A stretch of 23,744 nt of DNA from a virus: positions 1 to 23,744 of IMG/VR virus record IMGVR_UViG_3300021093_000364. One strand, 5' to 3'. Under the pieces are notes generated by a model that did not search any database, was not told the DNA's origin, and saw nothing but the letters and a program-made list of their open reading frames with translations. The translations under genes and the position numbers were made by a program. This document shows, piece after piece, positions 2,954 through 19,816 of the stretch (within the stretch, counting starts at the first letter, position 1; every line of letters begins with the position of its first letter).

Positions 2954-3294
2954 GTTTCTTTAAATCTCAAGTCGTCCGTGCAGAGATGGCTGAAATCTCA
3001 GAAATGCAAGAACAAATTTATAAAAATGTTTTTGAGTTTCCTCGTATGACTAAAGAGGAAAAGATGTTTCATGTAAATCTTCTTGGACAACTTTTAGAAA
3101 AACAAAAAGTGCTTTATACTCGTCTGAGTTTGTCAGATGATCCTGAAGCACAAGAAATGAAAAAACGTATTGTTGAATCAGCGTCAATGATGGGTCTTCC
3201 ATCAAACGTTGATATGAATGTGATCTTCAACAACATGAGCAAGATGCTTGAAGCAATGCGCGAAAGTATTGACGAAACAGGTTCAGACCTGTAG
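2950..3294 (+). CDS. DUF1825-like protein of unknown function
   Basis: This 114-aa protein is probably all-helical. It has no membrane segment and no recognisable catalytic motif. The first part (SFFKSQVVRAEMAEISEMQEQIYKN, given here only as an approximate span of residues 2-26) and the following EEKMFHVNLLGQLLEKQKVLYTRL-like segment at about 37-60 resemble the DUF1825 family, small proteins found mostly in cyanobacteria. Phage members are common between gp59 and gp32. A Shine-Dalgarno AGGAG (2941-2945) lies close to ATG 2950, and the gene overlaps gp59 by 4 bp. The final codons hold the -35 element and palindrome of a probable gp32 promoter. The function is unknown; the family suggests a gene shared with the host. 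Confidence 0.7.
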   Translation: MSFFKSQVVRAEMAEISEMQEQIYKNVFEFPRMTKEEKMFHVNLLGQLLEKQKVLYTRLSLSDDPEAQEMKKRIVESASMMGLPSNVDMNVIFNNMSKMLEAMRESIDETGSDL

Positions 3295-3344: not shown

Positions 3345-4283
3345 ATGTCTTTTAACGATCTCAAAAAGCAATCTTCTCTTGGTTCGCTCACTGCGAAACT
3401 GGTTAAAGAAGTAGAGAAGATGAGTACAACTTCTGGTGGTGCTGATGAGCGTCTCTGGAAACCTGAAATGGACAAAACTGGTAACGGTTTTGCAGTGATT
3501 CGTTTCCTTCCTGCACCAGAAGGTGAAGAACTTCCTTGGGCAAAATTGTATACTCATGCCTTCCAAGGTCCTGGTGGTTGGTATATTGAAAACTCTCTGA
3601 CTACCACTGGTCAGAAAGATCCTGTTTCTGAGTACAATCGTGAACTCTGGAACAGTGGTAGTGAAAAGGATAAAGAAACTGTTCGTAAGCAGAAGCGCAA
3701 ACTGTCTTACTACAGCAACATCTATGTTGTAAAGGATCCTGCTAATCCTGCAAACGAAGGTAAAGTCTTCTTGTTCAAGTATGGTAAGAAGATCTTTGAC
3801 AAGATCATGGAAGCAATGCAACCTGAGTTTGAAGATGAAACTCCGATCAATCCCTTTGACTTCTGGCAGGGTGCTAACTTCAAACTCAAAATCGTAAAGA
3901 AAGATGGGTATTGGAACTACGACAAATCAGAATTTGACCGCGTTGCACCACTCCTGGATGATGATGATGCTCTTGAAGCCATCTGGAAGAAGCAATACTC
4001 GCTCGCTGCGGTAACTGCTCCTGATCAATTCAAGTCCTATGAGCAACTTGAAGCACGTCTGAAAATGGTTCTAGGTCAAAAGAGTGCTCGTGCTGCAATT
4101 CAAGAACAAGAAGATCAGTATGATTCCTATGTTCAAACTCCTTCCAAAGAGGAAAGTGTGATTGCAGAACTGGAAGAGTCCTTTGCTCGCTCTAAGTCAC
4201 CTTCACTTCCTGTTGTGAATAAGGAAACTGATGAGGATGAAGATGATGCGTTGTCGTATTTTTCTCGCCTTGCAAATGACTAA
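3345..4283 (+). CDS. 32: gp32-like single-stranded DNA-binding protein
   Basis: This 312-aa protein aligns by eye with T4 gp32 through the OB-fold core: SYYSNIYVVKDP, then ANEGKVFLFKYGKKIFDKI (about residues 126-144), then the DFWQGANFKLK and YWNYDKSEF motifs. A LAST-like basic/Ser motif, KKQSS, is at residues 7-11, the site used for cooperative self-binding. The C-terminus is very acidic (DEDEDD near the end), the usual partner-binding tail for gp59, polymerase and other proteins. It has no cysteine at all, so the structural zinc site of T4 gp32 is absent. Shine-Dalgarno GAGGT (3333-3337) is 7 nt before ATG 3345. The gene has its own promoter candidate upstream and a hairpin terminator downstream. 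gp32 coats single-stranded DNA at the fork and during recombination. Confidence 0.93.
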   Translation: MSFNDLKKQSSLGSLTAKLVKEVEKMSTTSGGADERLWKPEMDKTGNGFAVIRFLPAPEGEELPWAKLYTHAFQGPGGWYIENSLTTTGQKDPVSEYNRELWNSGSEKDKETVRKQKRKLSYYSNIYVVKDPANPANEGKVFLFKYGKKIFDKIMEAMQPEFEDETPINPFDFWQGANFKLKIVKKDGYWNYDKSEFDRVAPLLDDDDALEAIWKKQYSLAAVTAPDQFKSYEQLEARLKMVLGQKSARAAIQEQEDQYDSYVQTPSKEESVIAELEESFARSKSPSLPVVNKETDEDEDDALSYFSRLAND

Positions 4284-4315
4284 ATAACAATACCTGTAAG
4301 TCGCATTATAGGTGG

Positions 4316-4339
4316 AAGAGGTGCCTTCGGGTGCCTTTT
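4316..4339 (+). terminator. UUCG-loop intrinsic terminator after gp32
   Basis: AAGAGGTGCC (4316-4325) pairs with GGTGCCTTTT (4330-4339) around a TTCG tetraloop closed by C-G, giving a 10-bp stem if G.U pairs are counted. The U-rich 3' side gives it terminator form. The wobble pairs work only on the plus strand, so it acts on rightward transcripts leaving gp32, 33 bp after its stop. Confidence 0.75.
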
Positions 4340-4343
4340 CTTG

Positions 4344-4351
4344 TATAAATA
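4344..4351 (+). promoter_or_regulatory. T4-type late promoter for the first GIY-YIG gene
   Basis: This is a perfect TATAAATA, followed by GTATTG, which extends the match toward the T4 late consensus TATAAATACTATT. It is 25 nt before ATG 4377. By T4 geometry transcription would start at about 4357, at the second base of the right inverted-repeat arm, so late transcripts would lack the left arm. Confidence 0.75.
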
Positions 4352-4376
4352 GTATTGCGACTTACAGAGTAGAACT

Positions 4377-4997
4377 ATGGAACTCAAAGAGTATCACTAT
4401 GTCTATTATTCCTATGAGGAATATGGTAGAGGATATTTTGGTAGTAGAACTTGTAAATGCTTACCAGAAGACGATACAAAGTATTTTGGTTCATTCAAGG
4501 ATAAAAGTTTTAAACCAACTCAAAAGATAATCCTAAAAGATGACTATACCACAAGAGAAGATGCATATATTGATGAGATTGTTTTGCAAGAGTATTATGA
4601 GGTAGTTGAAAATCCACACTTTGTAAACAGAGCATATCAAACTTCTACTGGATTTAGTAGAAAAGGCGCAACTCCTCATAATAAAGGAAGTAAAATGTCT
4701 GAAGAACAAAGAAAAAAATTGAGTTATTCTTGTAAAGGAAGAACACTATCCAAAGAGACCAAAGAAAAAATAAGTAAAAGTTCTAAAGGAAGAAAACTAT
4801 CAGAAGAACATAAAAGAAAAATTGGCGAATCTAATAAAGGAAAATCCAGACAAACAAAAGAAGGTTTAGAAAGGCTTAAAAAAATGCAACAGGAAAGAAA
4901 AGGAAAACCTGGAAGAAAACATTCTGAAGAAACTAAAAGAAAAATTAGTGAAGCAACTAAAGGTAGAGTTCCTTGGAATAAGAAATTATTGGAATAA
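4377..4997 (+). CDS. Free-standing GIY-YIG homing endonuclease with NUMOD3 repeats
   Basis: This 206-aa protein has an N-terminal GIY-YIG-type domain: YVYYSY at 8-13, GYFG at 19-22 (the YIG element), Arg24, and an FVNRAY asparagine at residue 84. From about residue 95 it carries a chain of short basic NUMOD3-type DNA-binding repeats of the form KG-R-LSEE-K-KIS, at about 102, 120, 138, 155 and 179-197. This architecture is typical of phage Seg/Mob homing endonucleases, which cut HEG-less copies of a neighbouring gene to spread. gp32 and gp53 on either side are uninterrupted, so it is intergenic rather than intronic. Its 3' end overlaps the convergent gp53 gene by 12 bp. The leader AGAGTAGAACT before the ATG is identical to that of the second GIY-YIG gene. 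Confidence 0.85.
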   Translation: MELKEYHYVYYSYEEYGRGYFGSRTCKCLPEDDTKYFGSFKDKSFKPTQKIILKDDYTTREDAYIDEIVLQEYYEVVENPHFVNRAYQTSTGFSRKGATPHNKGSKMSEEQRKKLSYSCKGRTLSKETKEKISKSSKGRKLSEEHKRKIGESNKGKSRQTKEGLERLKKMQQERKGKPGRKHSEETKRKISEATKGRVPWNKKLLE

Positions 4998-9575: not shown

Positions 9576-9733
9576 TTGAGAGTTACTTTAAACTTAATTT
9601 CTCCTTGATGCAGTACCATAAATGGTCTTTATATGAAATTGAAGGATTGATACCTTGGGAAAGAGATATCTATGTTGAATTATTGAAATCACACTTAGAA
9701 GAAGAAAAAGCAAAACAACAACAAAATACTTAA
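9569..9733 (+). CDS. Small -1 frame ORF after gp26, likely expressed as a gp26 frameshift extension
   Basis: From the ATG at 9569 this is 54 residues: a mostly helical, charged protein with MDLESYFKLN at the start, an LIPWERDIYVELL segment at about 27-39, and a Lys/Glu/Gln-rich tail. There is no Shine-Dalgarno before the ATG, which sits inside the loop of the GGTCC/GGACC hairpin. Independent initiation is therefore poor and fusion by -1 frameshifting from gp26 is the better reading, adding RIALVH before the Met. This arrangement, a tail protein followed by a short frameshifted helical extension, mirrors tail assembly chaperone pairs in other phages. The ORF stop abuts the convergent GIY-YIG gene with no gap. 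Confidence 0.65.
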   Translation: MDLESYFKLNFSLMQYHKWSLYEIEGLIPWERDIYVELLKSHLEEEKAKQQQNT

Positions 9734-10375
9734 TTAGTTTATTTGTCTTACTAATTTTTCAACTTTTATAATATCTTTACATCTTTTTCTATTTCCTTTA
9801 TAAAAACCGCAAATATTACCTGCACTATATCCATTATTTTTTGCCCATGTAGATAATCCACATAAAATAATTTCGTTTTTGTTTTCAAAAGTAATTTTCC
9901 ACCAATTAGATTTTGGATGATTTTCTCCTTTTCTTGAATCCCTCATTTTTTCTCTAGTTTTTTGTGAGGCAGTTTTGCCGTAATTTGGATTTTTTTCTCC
10001 AATATTTACTAATCTCAATTTTTCTTTGTGTTCTTTTGAAAGAGTTTTGTTTTTGTTCAATTCTCTTAAATTTTCTCTAAATTGTGGAGAGCGAATAGCA
10101 CCACTTGCACCATCACCACCATCAGTTCTGTTATGTAAAATACCAGTTCCCAAGTCCTTTCTACCGAATAAACCAATCATATATTTTTCGTGCTTGAATG
10201 CTTCTTCTTCGGTGAGATTTTGTTTAAGAAATATTATTCTGGACTTATCTTTTGGTGGTTTTATATCATCTTTTTTTCTATTGTAGTACCTTTTGCCCGA
10301 CCCTTTACCTATGTAATAGGGAGTTCCGTCTATCCGCAAATAGGCGTAGGTATAAAATCTATATGGATTTATCAT
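9734..10375 (-). CDS. Free-standing GIY-YIG homing endonuclease with NUMOD3 repeats
   Basis: This 213-aa protein has an N-terminal GIY-YIG domain: FYTYAYLR at 7-14, YYIGKGSGKR at 20-29 with Arg29, the KHEKYMIGLFG helix with catalytic-type Glu63, and Asn82. NUMOD3-type DNA-binding repeats follow (LSKEHKEKLRLVNIG near 112-126, then NPNYGKTASQKTREKMRDSR near 129-148). A C-terminal winged-helix-like segment comes last, with LCGLSTWAKNNGYSAGNICG at about 171-190 and a YKGNRKRCKD basic end. It lies on the opposite strand to both neighbours, which are intact, so it is a free-standing intergenic endonuclease. The leader GAGTAGAACT before the ATG is identical to that of the first GIY-YIG gene, although the proteins are only distantly similar. 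Confidence 0.87.
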   Translation of the reverse strand: MINPYRFYTYAYLRIDGTPYYIGKGSGKRYYNRKKDDIKPPKDKSRIIFLKQNLTEEEAFKHEKYMIGLFGRKDLGTGILHNRTDGGDGASGAIRSPQFRENLRELNKNKTLSKEHKEKLRLVNIGEKNPNYGKTASQKTREKMRDSRKGENHPKSNWWKITFENKNEIILCGLSTWAKNNGYSAGNICGFYKGNRKRCKDIIKVEKLVRQIN

Positions 10376-10403
10376 AGTTCTACTCTTAAACTGACTGCAT
10401 TAG

Positions 10404-10411
10404 TATTTATT
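10404..10411 (-). promoter_or_regulatory. Late promoter for the second GIY-YIG gene (AATAAATA, minus strand)
   Basis: On the minus strand 10411-10404 reads AATAAATA followed by CTAATG, close to the extended T4 late consensus. It is 28 nt before the ATG. The predicted start near 10398 is the second base of the proximal inverted-repeat arm, just as at the first GIY-YIG gene. Confidence 0.6.
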
Positions 10412-10413
10412 CT

Positions 10414-10437
10414 AAAAGGAGGAGATTTCTCTCCCCC
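10414..10437 (-). terminator. GAAA-loop terminator on the minus strand upstream of the second GIY-YIG gene
   Basis: Read leftward, GGGGGAGA (10437-10430) pairs with TCTCCTCC (10425-10418) around a GAAA loop, followed by TTTT (10417-10414). One pair is G.U on the minus strand but A.C on the plus strand, so it is oriented leftward. No minus-strand gene lies upstream to be terminated, which suggests it belongs to the endonuclease module. Confidence 0.7.
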
Positions 10438-10485
10438 CTACCTTACAGATTGCAGTCAGTTAAGGTATTATTATTTATCATTGTC

Positions 10486-10493
10486 AATAAATA
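10486..10493 (+). promoter_or_regulatory. Probable late promoter for the tape-measure/hub operon (AATAAATA)
   Basis: AATAAATA is followed by GTCG and lies 36 nt before ATG 10530. It is the only late-type site I see in the gap before the long rightward tail operon, so it is the best candidate for driving it. Confidence 0.5.
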
Positions 10494-10529
10494 GTCGTAT
10501 AGAAGAAGAGAAACTAAAGCAGCAGCAAA

Positions 10530-12827
10530 ATGGGTCCTGACGAGTTAGATGATTTACTGGAAAGTATAAGAGCGGAGGGTAAAAAAGAATCCGCTCTTGC
10601 TTTGTATGAAGGAACCAGAGAGGAAGATCTTGTTAATGAAGATGTAGACGAAAGAATATTAAGAATACTTGGTCTTGATGAAGTTTTTGATATTGATTAT
10701 GGAACTTATCTAACTCTTCTTCGTGAGAAGTTAGCAGAAGCAAGAATGGTTGATAAGAAAATATCAACTGAAGAGAGTATGCTTCTGACTGATGAATTCA
10801 AAAGAGTAAGAGGAAATGTAGGTAGATTTAGAATTAGAAGAAAGAAAATAACTTCGGAGAACTTAGGAGTAACTGGACCTATCCGAGTATCTACTGAGAA
10901 GTTTTATCTAACTTCAAAAGCAGTTATTCCACAACCAGCAACTCCTGTCACAGAATCTTCTGAAGATGTAAAGAGTATTGAGGAAGCAATTGATAAGATA
11001 CTTAAGAGTTTAACTGACCAAAATAAACTCACGAAGAAAAAAGCAGACGAAGAAAGAAAATCTGACGAACAAAGAAGAAGAACTAAAAGAGAAGCAGATT
11101 TAGAAAAACCAATTCAAAAAGCAGCAGCACTTGTTAAAAAGATAGTTGCTCCATTCCAAAGTATTCTGGATAGAATCATGAGATTCATTCAGTTTACTTT
11201 GCTTGGTTATTTTGTTGATAAGGTTTTGAAATGGTTTGCTGATCCAGAGAATGATAGAAAAATCAAAGTTCTTGGTAGATTCTTAAAGGATTGGTGGCCT
11301 GCATTATTGACTGCATATGGATTATTTGCAACACCTTTTGGATTGTTTGTTCGTAGCACTTTGAAAATGCTGCGAGAATTTATTCCTCAGATGGCAAGAT
11401 TCATTGCTGCTAATCGTTGGTTATCTTTGTATACTGTGGCTGCGATTGGAGCAGCGACAAAGATAAAAGAATCCGAAAGGATGAAACCACTGACAGAAAA
11501 ATCTCAAGAAGATATTAATAAAACACTACAGAGTAAAGAATCTCCTTGGTATCAAAAACTTGGAGCATCTTTTGCTGGACAAAGTTTGAATGCTCCTGGA
11601 GGACCTAAAAATCCAATAGGACTACCTACTCCATCTGCTATGTATAATGGTGGTGGTTTGGTTAAAGGAAACATATTATCTAATAATGGTGGAATAAAAA
11701 GAAGATCATTTTTTGGTGGTGGAGAAGTTGATAGAATCGTAGATGTTAATGATATTGCATTTGATGGTGGTGGTGGAATTGATAATGATAGTGGTTTAAG
11801 AATTACTGGTGCTGGTCCTGATACGCAACTGATTGCAGCACAACCTGGCGAAGTAATGATATCTAAAAAAGCAGTTGATAAGTACGGAGCAAACTTTTTC
11901 CTTGGATTGAATAAGAGAGCAGGTGGAACTAATATTCCTAGAATGGTTAACAATATTCAACTTGCTCAAGGTGGAGGAAGAGTTAAAGGAAATATTAGCG
12001 GATTCCAGGACGGTGGAATGGTTGGTGGATTTGGTAATTTATTGAATAAATTAGGATCCATGGGACTTCCTGGAACTGGTAGCGTTATAGCACCTAGAGG
12101 AAGTCAAATGGGATTCCAGAATAAACTTCTAGGTATTCCTCTGAACAGAACAGTAATAAATCAGCAAGCGGGACAAAGACTTTCTCCAAAAGCAATACAA
12201 AGGTATAATCAAAGTCCTTCTGCTCCAAGTGTAATAAAACCTTGGAGTCCTTATGATTCAACTCAAGTTAGTTTTCCTAAGAGTTCTTCTAGACCACAAA
12301 GTAGTGATGGTTTGAATCTTAATTTCAAACAGAATGTACAAACGATACAAGGTGCTGCTCAAACACAAGAAAAAATGATGCGTGAAATGGGTGTCCAACC
12401 TTCTGGGTATGTTAATCTTCGTGGACAACCAATCAATCTTGGACCACAATCAAAACTATTGGACTACAATCAAAACTATCTGCACCAATCAATCTCTGCA
12501 CCAATCAATCTTGGACTACAAAGAGGTAACTTAAGAAATGCTATTAAATTAGCATACACCCCAACCGAAACAGATAGAGACGAGTTATATCAAAATAGAA
12601 TCAATCCTATCAATCTTGGACCACAATCAAAACTATCTGCACCAGGAACACCTGTCATCAGTAGTAAAACACAGATGATTGTCCTTCCTCCAACTACCTC
12701 TGTTGCACCAAAACCACAAACACCAACGATCTCTGGCACTCAAATACCAGAGTTTAGTATCGTTGCAAATACTGGTCATAGATCTATGATTTCTGATGCT
12801 CTTGGTATCGCGGATCTTGTAGGATAA
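10530..12827 (+). CDS. Large tail structural protein, tape-measure/hub-like
   Basis: This 765-aa protein has an acidic N-terminus, then a charged coiled-coil-like stretch rich in Lys, Glu and Arg (about 160-195). Next is an amphipathic/hydrophobic segment with SILDRIMRFIQFTLLGYF (211-228) and further hydrophobic helices to about 310. A glycine-rich part with a GPDTQLIAAQPGEVMISKKA element at about 429-448 follows, a pattern common near the end of phage tape-measure and tail proteins. The C-terminal third is low-complexity Pro/Gln/Ser sequence with internal repeats (NLGPQSKL). It is followed 4 bp later by a larger protein with a related hydrophobic segment. The T4 counterpart could be gp29 (tape measure), but I cannot prove homology by eye. 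There is no strong Shine-Dalgarno. Confidence 0.55.
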   Translation: MGPDELDDLLESIRAEGKKESALALYEGTREEDLVNEDVDERILRILGLDEVFDIDYGTYLTLLREKLAEARMVDKKISTEESMLLTDEFKRVRGNVGRFRIRRKKITSENLGVTGPIRVSTEKFYLTSKAVIPQPATPVTESSEDVKSIEEAIDKILKSLTDQNKLTKKKADEERKSDEQRRRTKREADLEKPIQKAAALVKKIVAPFQSILDRIMRFIQFTLLGYFVDKVLKWFADPENDRKIKVLGRFLKDWWPALLTAYGLFATPFGLFVRSTLKMLREFIPQMARFIAANRWLSLYTVAAIGAATKIKESERMKPLTEKSQEDINKTLQSKESPWYQKLGASFAGQSLNAPGGPKNPIGLPTPSAMYNGGGLVKGNILSNNGGIKRRSFFGGGEVDRIVDVNDIAFDGGGGIDNDSGLRITGAGPDTQLIAAQPGEVMISKKAVDKYGANFFLGLNKRAGGTNIPRMVNNIQLAQGGGRVKGNISGFQDGGMVGGFGNLLNKLGSMGLPGTGSVIAPRGSQMGFQNKLLGIPLNRTVINQQAGQRLSPKAIQRYNQSPSAPSVIKPWSPYDSTQVSFPKSSSRPQSSDGLNLNFKQNVQTIQGAAQTQEKMMREMGVQPSGYVNLRGQPINLGPQSKLLDYNQNYLHQSISAPINLGLQRGNLRNAIKLAYTPTETDRDELYQNRINPINLGPQSKLSAPGTPVISSKTQMIVLPPTTSVAPKPQTPTISGTQIPEFSIVANTGHRSMISDALGIADLVG
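12429..12643 (+). repeat. Degenerate direct repeats inside the 765-aa tail gene
   Basis: The block ATCAATCTTGGACCACAATC followed by AAAACTAT and CTGCACCA occurs near 12432-12460 and again at 12609-12643. Partial copies of GGACTACAATCAAAACTATC and CTGCACCAATCAATC lie between. In protein these encode PINLGPQSKL and similar peptides. The pattern suggests recent local duplication within a low-complexity C-terminus. Confidence 0.65.
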
Positions 12828-17192: not shown

Positions 17193-17408
17193 ATGGAAAG
17201 AAGTATTCAACAACACATTAACGATGATAGAGATGAACTAGATAATCCACAACTTTCTTCTCAGCGCCGTCGTCACTTAGAGGGTGAACTTAATTCTTTA
17301 GAGAAATATCAAGCAAATCATCCTGATGAAGATCACGATCCAACTCCCTTAGAATTATTTTGTGATGAAAATCCAGATGCATCTGAATGCAGAATTTATG
17401 AGGATTAA
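17193..17408 (+). CDS. cp12: CP12-like regulator of Calvin cycle enzymes
   Basis: This is a 71-aa protein. The C-terminal motif PLELFCDENPDASECRIYED (residues 52-71) has the CP12 redox element: Cys57 and Cys66 flanking Asp, Pro and Glu, with a terminal Tyr/Asp. In cyanobacteria and plants CP12 binds GAPDH and phosphoribulokinase when oxidised and shuts down the Calvin cycle. Phage copies are thought to push carbon into the pentose phosphate pathway for NADPH and nucleotide synthesis. The N-terminal cysteine pair and the usual AWD-VEEL core of plant-type CP12 are absent, so PRK binding may differ. It lies between the hub gene and an 802-aa tail gene, whose ATG overlaps its stop by 1 base, so it is made with tail proteins late in infection. 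Shine-Dalgarno AAGG is at 17180-17183. Confidence 0.78.
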   Translation: MERSIQQHINDDRDELDNPQLSSQRRRHLEGELNSLEKYQANHPDEDHDPTPLELFCDENPDASECRIYED

Positions 17409-19816
17409 TGTCAGAATCAGCACAAAATAGATATTTCAGAAAGCAATTAGAGAAACGACTTGGCAAATCCATTATTGGAATAGGTCAGGTTGTTTCGGAG
17501 GAGTTTGAAGTTGCTCAGAGACAGCAGGGGAAATTTACTTCTTATAAAGAACAAGCATCTGGAGTTCTTCTTAATAAGTATAAAGTAAGAATTTGTTCAG
17601 CAACAAATGATACTGAAAGAGTTGATGATTTAATAGATGCTTACGGTCAATCACCAACTTCTGGATTGCGTGGAGAAGCATGTCCAACTCCAGCGTATCC
17701 AGTAAACACTTATGTAACAATATTTCAAGATCCTTTAACTCAACTTTATTATATTGAACATGCACATATAAACACAAAAGCAGATCTTCCAAAGACAAAA
17801 GAATTTGCTGGTTGTGGTGCTGCAAGTGGATTTATTCCTGGTTCTATAAACTTTAAAGTACCACAAAGTTGTATAGATCCAAAGGGTAGTGGTGTTGCAT
17901 CTGGATCTGAAGTACCAAGAAATACTGTTCCTAGTAAAGAAGATGAAAAACAAAATACTCATAATGAAAGCATAGAGATACGAAGTTCATGTATTCCTGT
18001 TGATACTGCTGCAATCAATAAAGAACTTGAAGGACTTATTAAGTTTGTTGAAGAACTTAAAAATGGAGTTTTGGGAGAAGATAGTTTCTTACAAACGAGT
18101 CAAGAATTTTTAGATCAAGTTCAGTCTAAAGTAAATCAAGTATCTCAAGCAATTGCAAATTCTATTACTTGGTTGATTGATAAAATTCGTAAGTATATAA
18201 TGAGACAGGTTAATGGAATAGTTAATAATACAATAGGAAATGTTTATTTAAATATAAGATTTTCAATTTTAGAAGCAAATGATCAGGCTCTAAATTTAAT
18301 ATCATGTTTGTTCCTAGAAATTTTAAATAATCTTGCTAATCTTATTGCTGACTTTTTAAATGAGTTAATTGATACTTTTTTAAATACTGGTCTTTGTGTA
18401 ATAGAATCATTCCTGTCTTCTTTAATTGGAAGTATATTACCAGCATTATTGGACTCCATAAATTCAATTCTTGGTCCAATTTCTAGTTTAATTGGAGAGA
18501 CGATATCTCTTGCTAATGATGTTATTTCTTTTGTTGAATCAATTATTGATTTTCTTAGTTGTGATGTTCAGCAATTATGTCCAGTAACTAATGAGTGGAA
18601 TTTCCTTGAAGGTGGAATAGATTCATCTCAATTCTCACTTTCTACTTTAGATTTCAACTCTATTTTTGAGAGTGCATCATCTTTTGCTGATAGTGTTATT
18701 GCACTTGGAGAAATACCAGGTGACATTACAAGTAGTCTTTCTGGACTAAATGCACAGGAAATTGCACAAAGTGCAATTGATTCTGCACTAGATTGTGTTG
18801 GTCTTGAAGAGTGTGGAGTTCCTACAGTATCCTTCTGGGGATCTGATGGTTCCGGAACGACAGGTGATGTTGTAGTAAGTACTGCTGGTGAAATTCTTGG
18901 TATTAATATCATAACTCCTGGAAGTGATTATTCTAGTGAACCGACTGTTTCAATTAATGATTCTTGTGGAACAGGAACAGGTGCATATGGTACTGCAGTG
19001 ATTGGTGATGTTAATGTTTATACTGATGATGGAACTATTGTAGATCCAGATAATCCAGATAATACTAGAGAACAAGAAACCGTTACTGGTGTTGTTGATG
19101 TGATTATTAATAATTCTGGTTATGGATATCTATCATCACCTGATGGTAGCATTGGTGGTATGAATAGAGTAATTGCAGATCGTTGCCAAAGTTTAATTAG
19201 AAGAGGTGATACGAATAAGTGGGAAGGTCCATTTGATCCAGGAGAGGTTATTGATATTAGAGTTGGAGATACTGTAAGACTTGCAGGAATTCCTGAATAT
19301 ATTTCTCAGGAAAATACTTCTATTACTACTCCACCTTGTCCAGATCTTGTTTCTTCTACCTCACCATCTACAACTTATCCTGTTGCTGTTTCTATAGGTG
19401 GTGTTTATATTCAAGATCCTGGATTTGGATTTAGTGATGGTGATACAATTACAGTTATAACTAACGGTGTAGGGACAGATATAACTAACGGTGTAGGGAC
19501 AGATATAACTAACGGTGTAGGGACAGATATAACTAACGGTGTAGGGACAGATGTGGGAACAGGTGGAGGAACATCTGGTAATGGTGCAGAACTTGTTCCT
19601 GTCATAGGTGGTAATGGTAGAATTATTGATGTTAATATTTTTAAACCAGGTATTGGATTCACTAACATGCCAACACTTAAACTAAATACCAGTACAGGTT
19701 ACAATGCTACTTTAATTCCAATTCTTTCATTCAAGAGAATTGATGAAAATACCGCATTTAGTATTCCTGCTGGAACTCAATTGATTCAGGTTGTGGATTG
19801 TGTAGGTAAAAACTGA
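17408..19816 (+). CDS. Large tail/baseplate structural protein with tandem repeat
   Basis: This is an 802-aa protein. The N-terminal 120 residues include KYKVRICSATNDTERVDDLI and a TYVTIFQDPLTQLYYIEHAH strand pair, somewhat like an OB-fold as in spike proteins (weak inference). Residues about 215-400 form a long helical/hydrophobic region (LLDSINSILGPISSLIGET). The C-terminal half is beta-rich, with Gly and Asp repeats of the VYIQDPGFGFSDGDTITV type. Residues 684-715 are four exact copies of ITNGVGTD, from a 24-bp DNA repeat. Cysteines are scattered through the sequence. It overlaps cp12 and the next gene by one base each. A virion role near the spike is likely, but I do not recognise a named T4 protein. 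Confidence 0.65.
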   Translation: MSESAQNRYFRKQLEKRLGKSIIGIGQVVSEEFEVAQRQQGKFTSYKEQASGVLLNKYKVRICSATNDTERVDDLIDAYGQSPTSGLRGEACPTPAYPVNTYVTIFQDPLTQLYYIEHAHINTKADLPKTKEFAGCGAASGFIPGSINFKVPQSCIDPKGSGVASGSEVPRNTVPSKEDEKQNTHNESIEIRSSCIPVDTAAINKELEGLIKFVEELKNGVLGEDSFLQTSQEFLDQVQSKVNQVSQAIANSITWLIDKIRKYIMRQVNGIVNNTIGNVYLNIRFSILEANDQALNLISCLFLEILNNLANLIADFLNELIDTFLNTGLCVIESFLSSLIGSILPALLDSINSILGPISSLIGETISLANDVISFVESIIDFLSCDVQQLCPVTNEWNFLEGGIDSSQFSLSTLDFNSIFESASSFADSVIALGEIPGDITSSLSGLNAQEIAQSAIDSALDCVGLEECGVPTVSFWGSDGSGTTGDVVVSTAGEILGINIITPGSDYSSEPTVSINDSCGTGTGAYGTAVIGDVNVYTDDGTIVDPDNPDNTREQETVTGVVDVIINNSGYGYLSSPDGSIGGMNRVIADRCQSLIRRGDTNKWEGPFDPGEVIDIRVGDTVRLAGIPEYISQENTSITTPPCPDLVSSTSPSTTYPVAVSIGGVYIQDPGFGFSDGDTITVITNGVGTDITNGVGTDITNGVGTDITNGVGTDVGTGGGTSGNGAELVPVIGGNGRIIDVNIFKPGIGFTNMPTLKLNTSTGYNATLIPILSFKRIDENTAFSIPAGTQLIQVVDCVGKN
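19457..19552 (+). repeat. Perfect 24-bp tandem repeat, four copies, coding
   Basis: The unit ATAACTAACGGTGTAGGGAC plus AGAT is repeated exactly four times at 19457-19480, 19481-19504, 19505-19528 and 19529-19552. It is in phase with the gene and encodes ITNGVGTD four times. Because 24 is a multiple of three, copy-number change would not break the reading frame. Confidence 0.95.

Follow-up and report, generated by a model that had tools for sequence, protein, structure and literature searches.

The 23.7-kb virus record analyzed here, which in its full length we call the window, comes from a T4-like cyanophage and encodes gp32 together with baseplate and tail genes, and the question it raises is what purpose is served by the similar sequence arrangement found ahead of two endonuclease genes on opposite strands. 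The first of these is an ORF of 206 aa on the plus strand (4377..4997), directly 3' of the gene for the gp32 single-strand binding protein (3345-4283), and the second an ORF of 213 aa on the minus strand (9734..10375), between gp51 and the next tail-region gene. Both are NUMOD3/GIY-YIG-like, NUMOD3-positive in Pfam and of the homing-endonuclease kind; the second was also similar to homing-endonuclease PHROG 314, and a GIY-YIG domain did not score in Pfam for this ORF. Elsewhere in the window four 24-bp tandem repeats (ITNGVGTD) were noted at 19456-19535, within an 802-aa ORF (17408-19816).

The arrangement ahead of the second gene (module 2, minus strand) opens with an upstream T4-type late promoter, GATAAATA (10472..10479), and a predicted small antisense RNA of about 53 nt (10414..10466) starts five bases further on. 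This RNA, assigned from its fold and from stem and arm covariation, begins ACCUUAACUGACUGCAAUCUGUAAGGU with its first base A at 10466 and consists of hairpin 1 (10440..10466), in which a stem ACCUUA/UAAGGU showing compensatory changes encloses the antisense arm in its loop, followed by an intrinsic terminator with a GAAA loop and TTTT (10414..10438). The core of the 5' arm, AACTGACTGC (10452..10461), is complementary to 10389-10398, and CUU at 10464-10462 pairs with AAG at 10387-10385 to give three extra pairs. The downstream late promoter for the endonuclease mRNA, AATAAATA (10404..10411), has its predicted +1 at 10398, and the leader (10376..10398) is made up of the 3' arm GCAGTCAGTT, the Shine-Dalgarno region AAGAG and GAGTAGAACT; its full sequence, GCAGUCAGUUUAAGAGUAGAACU, with first base G at 10398, is followed by ATG. 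The arms (10464-10451 and 10399-10385), the terminator and the AATAAATA box were all found where the original prediction had placed them, while the upstream GATAAATA, the arm-enclosing stem and the exact coincidence of the start of complementarity with the predicted mRNA +1 had been missed.

Module 1, on the plus strand, begins with a late-promoter-like CTAAATA (4280..4286) which overlaps the gp32 stop codon and is followed by a predicted RNA start at 4292. Its small antisense RNA would be about 51 nt (4292..4342), with the 5' arm CTGTAAGTCGC (4294..4304) complementary to 4357-4367 and an intrinsic terminator with a UUCG loop (4317..4342), and after the downstream late promoter TATAAATA (4344..4351) the mRNA has its predicted +1 at 4357 and a leader (4357..4376) containing the 3' arm GCGACTTACAG and GAGTAGAACT. 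The inter-arm distance is 50 nt (arms 4294-4305 and 4356-4367) compared with 51 nt in module 2, and GAGTAGAACT-ATG, an exact 13-mer occurring only at these two places within the window, is identical in both, as had been claimed. The predicted fold of the small RNA had an energy of -25.2 kcal/mol (z -5.5, no shuffle as good) for module 1 and -20.5 kcal/mol (z -3.0) for module 2. The same order was observed in both window modules and in 187 distinct modules of related viral DNA: a T4-type late promoter (TAAATA), followed after 5 nt by a short hairpin whose loop holds the 5' arm and by an intrinsic terminator, then a second late promoter TATAAATA, 5 nt, a leader running from the 3' arm to the Shine-Dalgarno and the endonuclease ORF, the cassette measuring ~115 bp.

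The terminator had previously been regarded as cargo without a target. We reject this, as in the complete modules checked a promoter-like TAAATA precedes the module's first base at an almost constant distance of 5 nt (4 in rare cases), so that the terminator has an RNA of its own to end, predicted to be ~50-60 nt. At 10472-10493 two late-promoter boxes stand back to back: the minus-strand GATAAATA assigned to the small RNA, and a plus-strand AATAAATA (10486-10493), which probably supplies a promoter to the displaced downstream gene at 10530.

On these features we consider it reasonably probable that each module is a tandem antisense-RNA/mRNA cassette which limits translation of the endonuclease's late mRNA and adds to this, at a second level, an I-TevI-like block of read-through. 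The first late promoter would make an RNA of 50-60 nt carrying 10-15 nt of antisense sequence in the loop of a short hairpin and ending at the intrinsic terminator, and the second, consensus late promoter would start the endonuclease mRNA at the first base complementary to that loop, with complementarity reaching the Shine-Dalgarno. The small RNA would pair with the mRNA 5' end, its own or that from another genome copy with the same arm, and would cover or crowd the Shine-Dalgarno so that translation is limited and a potentially harmful nuclease is kept low or pulsed at late times. Any terminator read-through RNA would hold both arms and could form the same pairing in cis, and transcripts from upstream would then be unable to express the endonuclease either. 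Since the small RNA appears to match the first bases of the endonuclease message, the gene probably carries its own silencer, and the presence of late promoters for both RNAs suggests that the nuclease is limited or pulsed. What the sequences show directly is the anatomy and geometry of the modules, their terminators and pairings with compensatory change, and their prevalence and portability; that both promoters are used, that the RNA pairs in trans and represses, and to what end, we infer from them.

The prevalence of the module was observed directly in several scans. A DNA-pattern scan of IMG/VR for ATAAATA-spacer-GAGTAGAACTATG returned 105 stretches, nearly all with a complete module; because such a pattern preselects, relatives of both window proteins were also collected by protein similarity alone. 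In this homology-only set of 77 distinct ATAAATA-leader-ORF loci, 96% carried, upstream, a stretch of 8 nt or more that complements the start of the leader, compared with 7.5% when leaders were re-paired, and TAAATA lay within the correct upstream interval at 74 of the 77 loci against a background of 5%. An ORF-blind scan, which required a pair of TAAATA boxes separated by 48-95 nt together with 8 or more complementary nucleotides in a row, gave two matches in the window and six in the isolate S-SRM01, with none in six Markov-4 versions of S-SRM01 and none in its reversed sequence. As these controls were empty and re-paired leaders rarely match, the module is not due to chance. Extended to S-SRM01 plus seven large IMG/VR genomes (1.6 Mb), the scan identified 31 modules, 30 of them immediately 5' of endonuclease-type ORFs as judged by N-terminal sequences, a sample of which was checked with Pfam; the controls gave three matches in three Markov-4 versions of all eight genomes and two in reversed sequences, or about one per 1.6 Mb.

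Among named phages BLAST returned a full-length match to the module only in S-SRM01, where the gp32-linked copy has predicted RNA starts at MW015081 positions 17966 (ACCTGATC) and 18034 (GTCACCCG); the paper describing S-SRM01 makes no mention of promoters, terminators or small RNAs. Behind another S-SRM01 module an endonuclease-like ORF (L291, 62515-63273) is annotated 'translation initiation factor 2', a label also carried by its matches in phages B23 and Sf-CH5 and which looks like a misannotation. T4 gave no match in the two-promoter scan. A pattern search of the marine isolates P-TIM68, S-B43, S-SM2, Bellamy, SynMITS9220M01, S-SCSM1 and RN05-S found no real module, the single pattern match in S-SCSM1 being without hairpin or terminator by eye, and three matches in cellular genomes were to the leader pattern only, in unrelated MAGs. 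Searches of Rfam gave no match in the window up to E = 1.

The geometry of the predicted starts was strikingly constant. Spacing from the upstream box to the RNA start was 5 nt in 180 of 186 distinct modules, a count tilted slightly toward 5 as the detector favours 5 nt on tied scores, with printed modules showing 5 directly; -1 was T in 168/186, and the downstream box was TATAAATA in 179/186. In 186 of 187 modules the first complementary base is the predicted mRNA +1. Pairing from +1 to +8 was imposed by the selection rule; outside this interval it was 83% at -1, 24-59% at -2 to -6 and 94, 89 and 85% at +9 to +11, dropping past +11 (about 55% at +12) as the leader passes the arm. By sequence these are T4-type late-promoter features, with NATAAATA/NCTAAATA 5 nt before the predicted starts and, at the upstream site, T at -1 and a purine at +1. 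The cyanophage late promoter has been described as NATAAATA (PMC2984593), and T4 late promoters have an 8-bp TATA box placed roughly one helical turn ahead of the start and lack a -35 element (PMC2988020). C at -12, which is frequent in the upstream boxes of modules, is the normal form in phage Aeh1 (PMC2988020). Conservation of the first two bases of the upstream box is below that of the downstream box, so it may be a weak promoter. The leader itself was less constant than had been proposed: the GAGTAGAACT ending is present, but since AAGCAG, AAAGCAGAACT and GAGCAGTT endings occur too, a fixed leader is not universal.

The paired arms and above-chance covariation on which the original prediction was to stand or fall were both found. 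Leaders began with 69 different sequences over their first 8 nt, each with its partner kept, and in 24 modules of the same geometry the arm helix had a covariation score of 0.726, compared with 0.198 when shuffled and at most 0.153 when slid, and both partners had changed in 9 of the 10 pairs; the arm changes are thus compensatory, as claimed. Because the two matching sequences vary in concert among copies, the pairing matters. Wobble-only arm changes also preserve pairing. Covariation of the hairpin 1 stem was clear but modest (0.314 against 0.191 shuffled, 4 of 6 pairs compensated), with stem types ACCU/AGGU, GCUU/AAGC, GUCU/AGAC and GCCU/AGGC across groups; this small stem was tested by fixed-geometry counts, as the CC/GG core common to the stems meant that swapping could not discriminate. 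The shuffles ignore kinship and related sequences inflate scores, so all these covariation figures are to be read as supportive rather than exact. The 5' strand is partly common to both helices and the two pairings are therefore mutually exclusive, as for a hairpin opening onto its target. A terminator hairpin was present in 187/187 modules, the stems being of 111 kinds and the loops for the most part GAAA or UUCG. The predicted duplex energy was -21.1 kcal/mol with the module's own leader and -8.7 kcal/mol with other leaders.

The module appears to have arrived with the endonuclease genes. In P-TIM68, S-B43, S-SM2 and Bellamy gp51 is overlapped or directly adjoined by the gene that follows it, where the window has the endonuclease and module in between, and ~30 nt of the gp51 3' coding end are found on both flanks of the inserted gene (9695-9733 and about 10499-10531). 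This duplicated gp51 3' end is an insertion footprint, possibly with co-conversion. The module was absent from the empty sites of related phages; the upstream TAAATA was missing at their gp51 sites, and behind the gp32 stop it was missing from all six gp32 3' ends examined. Since the empty sites are without TAAATA, the upstream promoter came with, or was built for, the element, and exploitation of a pre-existing host promoter by the insertion was ruled out; the box overlaps a stop codon in 63/186 modules.

Portability was also evident from the partner genes, in line with the earlier proposal of a regulatory cassette travelling with homing-endonuclease genes, of which the regulatory part stood, while an 'insulator' role would account for a part of its function at most. 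The suggested tie to GIY-YIG genes is not exclusive, as HNH and probably PD-(D/E)XK genes also carry the module: by Pfam, GIY-YIG, NUMOD3 and HNH partners were supported and PD-(D/E)XK was weak (E = 0.006). The latter is an ORF behind one module (L007) which resembles a PD-(D/E)XK nuclease and would widen the partners to a third nuclease fold. A single arm type accompanies several kinds of nuclease (GIY-YIG/NUMOD3, HNH), and up to 40 arm types were found with one kind.

The main rival, should the small RNA prove silent, is control of the I-TevI/segB/mobE type, a cis switch and insulator in which only read-through RNA from upstream promoters matters and the short RNA is functionless; the terminator would stop read-through, failing which a long-range helix would hide the ribosome site, and late mRNA starting from within the 3' arm would be freely translated. 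The ribosome-site hairpins of T4 I-TevI, I-TevII, I-TevIII and segB and of Aeh1 mobE are alike in gene class and in having a late promoter between paired arms, a 3' arm that abuts the ribosome site and a 5' arm that only late transcripts lack (PMC2988022). The modules have these same parts, with TATAAATA or AATAAATA between the arms and an mRNA predicted to start with the 3' arm's first base, and the ribosome site is predicted to be hidden in read-through RNA: leader positions +1 to +8 were predicted unpaired at 73% in late mRNA and 1% in read-through RNA, and the Shine-Dalgarno region at 57% and 24%. With its leader open in the one and closed in the other, the module also contains this known type of control. 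These known hairpins differ, however, in being short and local with no second promoter, inter-arm terminator or separate 5'-arm stem, and the module is not a single local hairpin of this kind. The T4 endonuclease genes checked were without a second promoter or long-range arms of the module kind. The cis switch alone accounts neither for a late-promoter box that arrives with the element and keeps a constant 5-nt distance to the 5' arm, nor for the conservation of the small arm-enclosing stem, nor for module 2, ahead of which there is no minus-strand gene; moreover, a terminator placed between the arms would seldom let the cis helix form. We regard a cis switch with a functionless short RNA as possible but rather doubtful. 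The fixed upstream promoter, the arm-presenting stem, which is unnecessary for a simple cis hairpin, and the position of module 2 favour a functional small RNA. Against it, both promoters are of the late type, so that net expression at any time is unaccounted for, pairing works in cis too, so that every pairing result also fits the I-TevI-type rival, and the Shine-Dalgarno itself is only partly covered, given the fall in pairing between +11 and +12.

That the arms act at the DNA level, as an inverted-repeat operator for the endonuclease (as for I-TevI on its own late promoter) or as a recombination or insertion site, seems to us very unlikely. T4 intron endonucleases do bind operators overlapping their promoters (PMC2988022) and the downstream promoter is flanked by the arms as an inverted repeat, but the same arm occurs with unrelated nucleases and a single nuclease type with many arms, wobble-only changes keep the pairing, complementarity is anchored on the RNA start, and the terminators and small stem would be left without a role. 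An ordinary terminator and late promoter whose arms reflect chance or ancestry has next to no likelihood, since, normal as such elements are between genes in these phages and related by descent as the modules are, 69 leader 8-mers keep their partners, re-paired leaders seldom match, 31 modules stand against about one control match per 1.6 Mb, and covariation far above shuffles (0.73 against 0.20) and slides already contradicts it.

Returning to the tandem antisense-RNA/mRNA cassette, several known systems share parts of it. The C4 antisense RNA of phages P1 and P7 is a small RNA made from its target's own strand, upstream of the target, and the module shares with it a same-strand upstream RNA complementary to the ribosome-site region of the target. 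In C4, loops likewise pair near the target ribosome site and a variable loop sets specificity (PMC5320573); C4 differs in being cut from a larger transcript by RNase P and in serving phage immunity and lysogeny. The module has a separate predicted promoter and terminator, a different fold, an endonuclease target and a lytic phage as host; its anatomy suggests an RNA with its own start and terminator rather than one processed by RNase P, and the C4 Rfam covariance model gave no match in the window up to E = 1. CfrI of S-PM2 is likewise a non-coding RNA of a cyanophage with a link to a homing endonuclease gene (F-CphI), but is about 225 nt and lies on the opposite strand, overlapping psbA (3' end) and F-CphI, whereas the window modules are on the endonuclease coding strand and adjoin gp32 and gp51. 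In S-PM2 a related endonuclease-like gene begins inside F-CphI, leaving no room for a module. In type I toxin-antitoxin systems and plasmid copy control, small antisense RNAs with a recognition loop control a harmful or dosage-sensitive product, as proposed here; these are usually encoded on the opposite strand or from a divergent promoter, while the module lies in tandem ahead of its target with a separate copy of the complement. In the open literature on cyanophage endonuclease control and on phage small RNAs with homing endonucleases we found nothing like the module, which agrees with the original prediction that it is undescribed; subscription journals were mostly outside this coverage and an earlier description is possible.

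The arms might further act as incompatibility types, the small RNA of one arm silencing in trans incoming endonuclease genes with the same arm, whatever the nuclease, while genes with other arms escape. We consider this unlikely. Selection for different arms within one genome was not significant (one identical pair seen, 2.2 expected), and an excess of different arms no greater than chance gives no support to selection for non-crossing arms. One stretch (L277, about 3190-3262) has a small-RNA hairpin and terminator after a lysozyme-like gene, with no second promoter, leader or endonuclease behind, and no matching leader was found elsewhere in its 111-kb record. Orphan small RNAs as free-standing immunity genes were rejected, as this was the sole endonuclease-less case with sequence behind it among 54 stretches of one arm type, and it had no matching leader. 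If the arms were incompatibility types, their diversification would be driven by competition among selfish genes, like plasmid antisense-RNA incompatibility groups.

The module provides a simple annotation signature for endonuclease genes in cyanophages, several of which are now hypothetical or misnamed, and its nearly 190 natural variants with matched arms form a large natural set of antisense pairs in which predicted binding is stronger by about 12 kcal/mol for own than for swapped partners. If the small-RNA reading is true, this would be the first case known to us of free-standing homing endonuclease genes with a small-RNA control system of their own. As these genes are a very common class of selfish DNA in phages, it would also offer a testable answer to how homing endonuclease genes avoid damaging the host genome.
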